DNA from: Methanopyrus sp. SNP6
GTDB lineage: Archaea > JAADCQ01 > Methanopyri > Methanopyrales > Methanopyraceae
Direction: 5' to 3'
DNA: 64,000 bases
NCBI RefSeq assembly: GCF_002201895.1
Contig: NZ_CP019436.1
Coordinates: forward strand, 509,456-573,455
This document shows, piece after piece, positions 56,964 to 59,201 of the stretch. Numbering within the stretch: position 1 is the first letter of the stretch; each line of letters begins with the position of its first letter. A model generated the notes under the pieces. The model was given only the letters and a program-made list of their open reading frames with translations, did no database searches and was not told the DNA's origin. Made by a program: the position numbers and the translations under genes.

Positions 56964-57473
56964 TCAGCGGTCCAGTCGTCTCCACACGTCCTTCCAGCGA
57001 TCCCCACACCTGTGCTTGACCTCGTACTTCAGCAAGTTAAGAAGAGTCGCCACAAACACCTCGTCGGTACCACGAATCACAGACTCGGGCCTGAACCCGT
57101 TGTTCGCGAGGGTCGTCAACCACGGGATACCCGCCTCGGAGACGAACGACTCCACCGACACCTCGAGCTCGGACGAAAAGGTGTCGATTACAGCCAAGAC
57201 GGCCGCATCAACGCACACCCTCCACGCGTCACCGTTCGCGGATGTCAGCGGGTACGAGAGTTCCGAACCGCGTGACCATGTGAACACGTCCGCCAGAGCC
57301 GCCGAGAAAAGCCCAAGGACCCCCGCAGTAAGTGATAGAGGGTTCTCGTCGTCCCGCACGTCCATAGACAATAACATCAGCTCACGGTGACCCACCCACA
57401 CGGGAGCCCGTAGCTCATGAACCCTCAGCTTTTTCCCAGTTAGCACGTCCAAGATCCACTTAGGGACTTGCAC
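56964..57473 (-). CDS. Hypothetical protein, unknown family
   Basis: The protein of about 169 residues has no recognised motif. The N-terminus (QVPKWILDVLTGKKLRVHELRAPVWVGHRELMLL) is followed by a moderately hydrophobic helix (SLTAGVLGLFSAALADVF) and an amphipathic C-terminus (ATLLNLLKYEVKHRCGDRWKD). GTG 57473 just after GGAGGGT is chosen. The frame continues upstream to 57596, but that part has poor composition. It is convergent with pheS, with adjacent stops. Confidence 0.55.
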   Translation of the reverse strand: MQVPKWILDVLTGKKLRVHELRAPVWVGHRELMLLSMDVRDDENPLSLTAGVLGLFSAALADVFTWSRGSELSYPLTSANGDAWRVCVDAAVLAVIDTFSSELEVSVESFVSEAGIPWLTTLANNGFRPESVIRGTDEVFVATLLNLLKYEVKHRCGDRWKDVWRRLDR

Positions 57474-57645
57474 TGCACCCTCCCGAACTCCCGAGAACAC
57501 GTCGCTCAGACCCCCCAAGAGATGATGAGACCCCGGTACGCATCGTCGGATCTGTGAAGACCGGCACTCGGGCTGAGGCCCGTGCACGCTTCCCATCTCC
57601 TTTTACCATCGTCTTCACGGCCATGTTTCCACGGGGGGATCGTAA

Positions 57646-57936
57646 TTGGAGCCGCCGGTGAAAGAGCACCGGGAAGGAACGCTGATCCGGGTGCGGGTGA
57701 ACCCGGACGCGGACACCACCGATTTGAAGGGGGTCGATGATTGGCGTGGGGCCATAGAAATTGACGTAGCCGCGCCACCGGTGAAGAATAGGGCGAACCG
57801 CGAGTTGCTTGAGTTCCTCGGGAGGAAGCTCAACACGACCTGTGAGTTGGTCTCGGGAGAGAAGTCCAGGGAGAAGTTAGTGCTCGCACGGGACATCTCC
57901 GTTGATGAGGTGGAGGAACGGCTGGGATTGCGTTAA
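57646..57936 (+). CDS. DUF167/UPF0235 (YggU-like) protein
   Basis: The 96-residue protein has the DUF167 pattern: IRVRVNPDADTTDLKGVDDW, IEIDVAAPPVKNRANRELLEFLGRKL and CELVSGEKSREKLVLARDIS. Homologues are small and conserved in all domains, and their function is undefined. It starts at TTG 57646, with GGGGGGAT about 8 nt upstream. It is followed by the structured gap at 58 kb. Confidence 0.85.
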   Translation: MEPPVKEHREGTLIRVRVNPDADTTDLKGVDDWRGAIEIDVAAPPVKNRANRELLEFLGRKLNTTCELVSGEKSREKLVLARDISVDEVEERLGLR

Positions 57937-58003
57937 GCGTCACGGGAAGCAGGTGAGCGTACGCAAGGCGGCAACACCCTAGGACTGCAGTGGTACTCGG
58001 TGT

Positions 58004-58205
58004 GGGCCCGGGTCGAAGCGACGGGCTCATCGGCGGCGGAACCGCCGACCCTCTTACCAGTGTCCCGTCGCCGTCCCCCCGGGCCCTTCATCGGCTGTGC
58101 CCGGCGGTAGCCGACCCGGCGGATCATCCCCGGGATGGAACCGCGTCATCCGCGGGCGGGGAGGCCGGGCTTCGGTCCGCTGGGTCATCCCTTGCACACG
58201 GACCC
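58004..58205 (+). ncRNA. Candidate structured non-coding RNA
   Basis: The 416-bp gap 57937-58352 has no plausible reading frame but folds strongly. GGGCCCGGG (58004-58012) pairs with CCCGGGCCC (58078-58086); inside it GCGACGGG (58018-58025) pairs with CCCGTCGC (58064-58071); inside that CGGCG-GAAC-CGCCG (58034-58047). Downstream are CGGCT/AGCCG (58092-58113), GCGGAT/ATCCGC (58119-58153), CGGGC-TTCG-GTCCG (58166-58179) with a G-U pair and a cUUCGg loop, and GGGTC/GACCC (58182-58205). The G-U pair and tetraloop favour the plus strand. No match to RNase P, SRP or tRNA signatures was recognised. Confidence 0.5.
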
Positions 58206-58352
58206 TCTTAGCCCGAGACCCCACTGAACTCGCCGAATCTTAACCATACCGCCTGAAGACGTTCATAGTCTCCCCCCGAAATCGTAATGTTTTTCTGAAA
58301 TTAAATACGCCGATGGAGGGAGGGCGACTCGCCTGTCATCGCCGCCCATCTG

Positions 58353-59201
58353 GTGATCACACGCCGGTCGGAGTCCCCCGAGGTGAAACCTCCGCCCGAG
58401 GAGGCGTGGATGGGTAGGCCGGTAAGGCCCGCTCAGGGCTTCCACACGCGAGTCTCGATGATTGCAGGCGTAATGATGGGAGGACCCGCCGACGTTGAGT
58501 TCCCGAAGACGACCCACCCGCTCGAGCTACCACATTACCTCGAAATAGACGGTGATACCTGGTGTCGACTGAGGTGTCGGCTGGAGTCGTTGGAGGACAG
58601 GAGCCCGGATTTAGGGGACGCCGTCCGGGCATACATCAGGGAAGTGTTCAGGTGTATGATCAAGCCAGACTTCGCGATCGCCGTTAAAGCGTGTACTCCC
58701 GTCATCGCCCTCGACACTCCGCTATGGCGCGACGCACGAAGGTTGGCCCGCGCGATCGCAAGACTACTGGCGAGGGTCACGGGAGTCGAGGTGCAACCTC
58801 CTCCGGACACCGCGGCAGAACTCCGAGCGACGCTGTACCCGATCGCTGAACGGGCGCTGGTATCCACGTTGCTCGCACAGGCGGTAGCGCATCGTGTTCG
58901 ATCGTTGGGGATACGATCGGAATACTTGAGCGCGCACTTGGATTCGCCCTCCGGTGAGCCCCCACCCCGTGAACTCGGGGAGGTCTCCGACCTGTACGCT
59001 ACGCTGGTAAAGGACTTTGAAGGGTACCTCACGCGAGTGACGCGCTTGAGCCGGTACATCACGATCACAGCTGGGCGTAAATTCGTCCTCACACCGGACG
59101 ACTACGACCCGGCGTGGAGAGGTTACCTTCAAGGTCTGCGCAGGTTCTGGGAGAATAAACGTGGAACGGAGGAAATAATCAGGCAGTTGGGTCTGTCCTG
59201 A
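58353..59201 (+). CDS. Hypothetical protein, unknown family
   Basis: The 282-residue soluble-looking protein is Arg/Leu/Ala-rich and mostly helical, with a 50-residue low-complexity N-terminus (TRRSESPEVKPPPEEAW) and conserved-looking blocks PLELPHYLEIDGDTWCRLRCRLESL, RLARAIARLLARVTGVEV and GRKFVLTPDDYDPAWRGYLQGLRRFW. No family was recognised. It starts at GTG 58353 or ATG 58410. Its stop abuts the convergent synthase gene with no gap. An AT-rich TTAAATACG near 58299 could be part of its promoter. Confidence 0.6.
   Translation: MITRRSESPEVKPPPEEAWMGRPVRPAQGFHTRVSMIAGVMMGGPADVEFPKTTHPLELPHYLEIDGDTWCRLRCRLESLEDRSPDLGDAVRAYIREVFRCMIKPDFAIAVKACTPVIALDTPLWRDARRLARAIARLLARVTGVEVQPPPDTAAELRATLYPIAERALVSTLLAQAVAHRVRSLGIRSEYLSAHLDSPSGEPPPRELGEVSDLYATLVKDFEGYLTRVTRLSRYITITAGRKFVLTPDDYDPAWRGYLQGLRRFWENKRGTEEIIRQLGLS

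Follow-up and report, generated by a model that had tools for sequence, protein, structure and literature searches.

On the minus strand of the 64,000-nucleotide stretch of the Methanopyrus sp. SNP6 genome analysed here (hereafter the window), we found a gene that most probably (we put the probability at roughly 0.87) encodes an archaeal H/ACA guide sRNA of two hairpins, with its 5′ hairpin (HP2) directed at U1485 and its 3′ hairpin (HP3) at U1356 of 16S rRNA (Table 1). What had been an unnamed structured RNA becomes a prediction of two specific 16S pseudouridines, one close to the decoding region and one within helix 45, in a host whose heat tolerance is among the highest known. Pseudouridines are thought to be few in archaeal rRNA and are described mainly in the 23S peptidyltransferase centre and helix 69 (PMC7991803). 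In the proposed mechanism, Cbf5, Nop10, Gar1 and L7Ae would assemble on each hairpin, the internal-loop pocket of that hairpin would pair with 16S rRNA on either side of the target U and leave U-N unpaired, and Cbf5 would then isomerise the unpaired target U to pseudouridine, HP2 guiding U1485 and HP3 guiding U1356. Transcription of the gene, assembly of the RNP and both pseudouridines are inferred. Two of these proteins are encoded by the host with matches over the cut-off (Cbf5, 475.9 bits; Nop10, 85.2 bits), and Gar1 has been reported in M. kandleri AV19 as MK0859 (PMC3695527).

Table 1. Features of the predicted guide sRNA gene and its parts, in window positions.
Feature	Position	Strand	Remark
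Predicted H/ACA guide sRNA gene	~58217 to ~58000	minus	core conserved in five Methanopyrus genomes; strand by G·U pairs
Box A-like promoter element, TTAAGA	58238..58243	minus	AT-rich counterpart in the equivalent place in all five genomes
Conserved 5′ leader	58185..58209	minus	function unproven
Leader AAGAGG	58204-58209	minus	
Leader GUGUGCAAGG	58190-58199	minus	complementary to 16S CCUUGCACAC, SSU 1368-1377
HP2, 5′ H/ACA unit	58096..58170	minus	pocket complementary to 16S U1485
HP2 lower stem, GCCCGGC with GCCGGGC	58164-58170 with 58099-58105	minus	
HP2 5′ guide, CUCCCC	58158-58163	minus	
HP2 upper stem, basal closing pair	G58157·U58114	minus	
HP2 upper stem, CCCGCGGA with UCCGCCGGG	58149-58156 with 58115-58123	minus	
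HP2 GAUGA	58124-58128	minus	
HP2 3′ guide, CGGCUACC	58106-58113	minus	
HP2 ACA	58096-58098	minus	invariant in five genomes
Linker between HP2 and HP3	58087..58095	minus	GAUGA invariant in five genomes
HP3, 3′ H/ACA unit	58001..58086	minus	pocket complementary to 16S U1356
HP3 lower stem (9 bp), GGGCCCGGG with CCCGGGCCC	58078-58086 with 58004-58012	minus	
HP3 5′ guide, GGGACG	58072-58077	minus	
HP3 upper stem (8 bp), GCGACGGG with CCCGUCGC	58064-58071 with 58018-58025	minus	
HP3 variable top		minus	between GCGACGGG and GAUGA
HP3 GAUGA	58027-58031	minus	invariant in five genomes
HP3 3′ guide, UUCGA	58013-58017	minus	
HP3 ACA	58001-58003	minus	invariant in five genomes

A sequence-only reading of the window had proposed a structured non-coding RNA of about 200 nt within 57937–58352, and comparison with four other Methanopyrus genomes (G001–G004; G000 is the source genome of the window) bears this out through both conservation and the compensatory changes that it had named as a check. 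Its interval was too wide: the conserved core spans ~58000–58205 (~200 nt), with 57937–58000 and 58250–58352 falling outside. The core occurs in synteny in all five genomes while the flanking genes diverge, with PheS upstream in each and a conserved LeuA-like gene downstream in the four whose contig extends that far; the DUF167 gene was not found in G002 and G003. In these same two genomes the gene adjoining the core is down to 38–43% amino-acid identity, with the core at 78–88% nucleotide identity. That gene, a 282-aa ORF on the plus strand (58353–59201), is fast-evolving and conserved in position, and it has no Pfam match. As for the absence of coding potential in the earlier reading, open frames do exist in the area and none is conserved, because the indels among relatives are not multiples of three; we rejected a protein-coding reading on these out-of-frame differences. 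Searching 40 relatives with the 416-nt DNA interval returned convincing matches in Methanopyrus only (a match in G024 appears, by eye, to sit in a tRNA), and scans of 394 archaeal genomes for both guide layouts, using exact patterns that divergent guides would escape, gave no visible excess over a reversed-pattern control outside Methanopyrus.

The strand was decided by G·U pairs and covariation. Tallied over 16 tabulated helix pairs in five species, the minus strand shows 7 G·U pairs and 1 mismatch, whereas the same cells on the plus strand show 0 G·U pairs and 8 mismatches, and the variable pairs are G-C, A-U or G·U when read on the minus strand; we therefore favour the minus strand, contrary to the earlier reading. 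The opposite assignment, in which the plus strand is the RNA and serves as a novel structured RNA or as a cis-regulatory leader for the downstream gene at 58353, is highly improbable, and we rejected it on the G·U evidence. The plus strand also allows these helices, together with a cUUCGg loop (58172–58183), but that choice turns the variable minus-strand G·U pairs into A·C mismatches. Also against it, the box A-like element is upstream on the minus side, the G004 core directly abuts a plus-strand C/D-type sRNA, and the downstream gene has diverged strongly, as described above, while the core has changed little. The cUUCGg loop with its G-U pair, which the earlier reading had pointed out, accordingly lies on the wrong strand, with an A-C mismatch on the transcribed one. 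Minus-strand transcription would begin near 58217, a start placed by the position of the box A-like element, and would end near 58000; box A in AV19 was reported as TTTAAA (PMC3695527).

At the heart of the element are two nested stems (58004–58012 with 58078–58086; 58018–58025 with 58064–58071) that, as first described, pair perfectly; in HP3, the 9-bp helix forms the lower stem and the 8-bp helix the upper one. The nested 9+8 bp layout arose in 0/500 dinucleotide shuffles (any single 9-bp stem: 90/500) and in 2/394 overlapping slices of the window, the element's own slices possibly among them. An appeal to special stability at ~100 °C is unneeded, as high GC alone yields such folding energy, which is unexceptional for GC-rich DNA (z = −0.63 for the plus strand and −1.08 for the minus strand).

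Both hairpins have the architecture by which archaeal box H/ACA units are recognised: an internal-loop pocket between the lower stem and the upper (GA) stem, an ACA directly 3′ of the lower stem that is invariant in 5/5 genomes in both units, and a bipartite guide around U-N (8+5 bp in HP2; 4–6 plus 6–7 bp in HP3). HP3 has strongly conserved stems, and energy folding gives its pocketed hairpin in all five genomes; pair 1 of its upper stem is G-C, G·U or A-U across species and pair 4 is A-U or G-C. The productive "10/5/9" fold (PMC4652768) combines a stem of 10 layers, G·A pairs counted in, with a 3′ guide of 5 nt and a lower stem of 9 bp. The HP3 of G000 resembles it, with 8 Watson-Crick pairs and a GAUGA half in the upper stem, 5 nt in the 3′ guide and 9 bp in the lower stem. 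For the spacing from box to upper stem, a range of 14–16 nt has been given, of which 14–15 is productive (PMC4652768); we count 14 nt in HP3 of G000, G001 and G004 and 13 nt in G002 and G003 (drawn pairs), and 15–16 nt in HP2. HP2 is drawable as a pocketed hairpin in 5/5 genomes, and energy alone gives that fold in G000, G003 and G004 and not in G001 and G002; its lower stem and basal pair vary between G-C and G·U among species, and in G004 the lower stem has one extra base on each side (GCCCCGGC/GCCGGGGU). At the top of HP2, G004 has a canonical K-loop (GGGG-UGA...AAUGAG-CCCC), and G000–G003 keep the GAUGA half of the kink-turn invariant with one extra base present. The GAUGA half of the HP3 kink-turn is likewise present in 5/5 genomes, and the 5′ strand opposite it, GGGACA, is non-canonical. 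As a separate observation (58092–58113, minus), AGCCG, which begins at the last base of the HP2 ACA, is complementary to CGGCU of the HP2 3′ guide and could mask the guide; it is similar to the 16S target (GGUAGCCG) and does not vary among the five genomes.

Other RNA classes were set aside. At the Rfam gathering cut-off nothing matched within the element, and a relaxed scan of 57500–58700 gave no credible match in it. What the earlier reading missed is the signature of a known class, the H/ACA guide, on the minus strand. It was correct that this is neither RNase P RNA nor tRNA: a tRNA scan at the element found none, and archaeal RNase P RNA (RF00373) has no match here, the genome's own gene being at G000:C1:344177 (88.3 bits). 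We rejected a box C/D sRNA as well, as inspection of the minus-strand alignment shows recurring GAUGA and no conserved CUGA in the core.

To assign targets, we compared the pockets with 16S rRNA, in which both proposed sites are identical across the five 16S genes. The HP2 pocket matches GGUAGCCG[U]AGGGG with 8+5 bp around U1485 (E. coli ~U1512, helix 45). In a scan allowing offsets of 0–5 on each side, G000, G002 and G003 all gave this site as their best match, and the offset was the one that the basal G·U/G-C pair predicts; G004 pairs 7+6 at U1485 and has another site that scores slightly higher with free offsets. Shuffled guides equalled the HP2 score in 1/1000 (G000) and 3/1000 (G004) cases under a fixed-pocket null, in which trying several offsets carries no penalty. 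The 5′ duplex amounts to −13.9 kcal/mol in G000 and −12.2 in G004, for which a published guide-duplex cut-off of −6 kcal/mol (PMC4652768), computed with another program, is a rough comparison. We grade the predicted assignment of HP2 to U1485 as strong.

For HP3, whose pocket is fixed by its stems, GGUGAA[U]ACGUCCC is the best 16S site in 5/5 genomes; it places the target at U1356 (E. coli ~U1376 by our own count), close to the decoding region. We grade this predicted assignment only as moderate, because 0.5–9% of shuffled guides, depending on species, match the score, a 23S site (LSU 514) scores marginally above U1356 in G002, and the duplex on the 5′ side is weak in G000–G002, where its 4 bp amount to −0.5, −1.2 and +1.0 kcal/mol (duplexfold); it is stronger in G004 (−3.8) and G003 (−6.4 kcal/mol). 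The weak 5′ duplex and the 23S site in G002, together with the non-canonical HP3 kink-turn, would also fit an arrangement in which only HP2 is productive and HP3 is structural or degenerate, or acts on a different RNA (23S, tRNA or mRNA) rather than on 16S U1376 (E. coli numbering). We consider this somewhat unlikely, as one 16S site tops the small-subunit matches of HP3 in five species, its 3′-guide variants (UUCG, UUCA, UUUA, UUCACC, UUCAUC) keep four to six pairs, G·U included, and its stems have been strongly conserved.

Upstream of the two guide units lies the conserved leader, in which GUGCAA is invariant in five genomes. Its GUGUGCAAGG segment is complementary to 16S CCUUGCACAC (~1388–1397 in E. 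coli numbering), which begins 12 nt past the HP3 target U; the match covers 10/10 bp in two genomes (G000, G001) and 8 bp in the remaining three. An additional rRNA contact through the leader is possible and weakly supported by these matches. Carried further, they raise the alternative of an rRNA-folding chaperone whose leader holds 16S ~1388–1397 while the subunit assembles; the H/ACA units would then serve as anchors, and guiding would not be the main role. The 10-bp match beside the HP3 target and the invariant GUGCAA speak for such a role, but a 10-bp match anywhere in rRNA arises in 67/300 shuffles (more rarely near the target, in 109/20000) and the GUGUGCAAGG bases could pair instead with CACAC at the 3′ end of the sRNA, which leaves the chaperone quite unlikely. 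Equally a long shot is the broader proposal of a Methanopyrus-specific two-unit RNA with a double role: it would direct pseudouridylation in helix 45 and the decoding region of 16S and, by pairing of its leader with 16S ~1388–1397, would bridge the 16S 3′ region and so chaperone assembly at ~100 °C. We had also considered whether the leader might form a third H/ACA unit and dropped the idea, as this stretch is without an ANA box and without a consistent stem. A box C/D sRNA complementary to one H/ACA leader has been reported (PMC3695527); for the present leader, BLAST against its own genome, which short guides could escape, matched the locus itself only.

Returning to the favoured reading, the two-unit guide is a new example of a known RNA class, an ordinary H/ACA guide absent from Rfam, and similar Methanopyrus guides may therefore be missed by annotation. 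H/ACA sRNAs with more than one hairpin do occur in archaea, though rarely (PMC7991803). Af4 of Archaeoglobus fulgidus (Af4.1–4.3) and Pa40/Pf7 of Pyrococcus (.1–.3) are likewise tandem H/ACA hairpins with rRNA targets, and in them, too, the pocket is flanked by a lower stem of ~9 bp and a GA stem of ~10 layers, with ACA after the stem (PMC4652768). In contrast to these three-unit RNAs, the Methanopyrus RNA has two units, a conserved 5′ leader and no Rfam match, its predicted targets both lie in the 16S 3′ region, and its kink-turns are mostly non-canonical except in HP2 of G004. Within the genus, RNA-seq of M. kandleri AV19 yielded six H/ACA sRNAs, one of them, described as "newly identified", having a 5′ leader, which fits the layout of our RNA of the same genus and class (PMC3695527); the present RNA may already be among the six. 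The H/ACA snoRNA snR30/U17 is also linked to small-subunit rRNA, possibly pairing outside guide pockets, but snR30 does not guide pseudouridylation (PMC7601244), whereas in the Methanopyrus RNA the pocket, at least that of HP2, is fully complementary to its target.

Nearby on the plus strand we noted a box C/D-type sRNA candidate (57518–57578; AUGAUGA ... CUGA) with weak Rfam matches to several sR families. Its CGGCACTCGGG, before CUGA, is perfectly complementary to 16S 406–416 over 11 nt, and its ACCCCGGTAC complements 16S 439–448; the candidate is kept in the other Methanopyrus genomes and directly abuts the H/ACA core in G004. The listed start of a minus-strand ORF (56964–57596) lies upstream of this sRNA; because relatives in G002 and G003 align only from residue 14 or 33 on, the true start is probably further in, which would leave the C/D-type sRNA largely intergenic.
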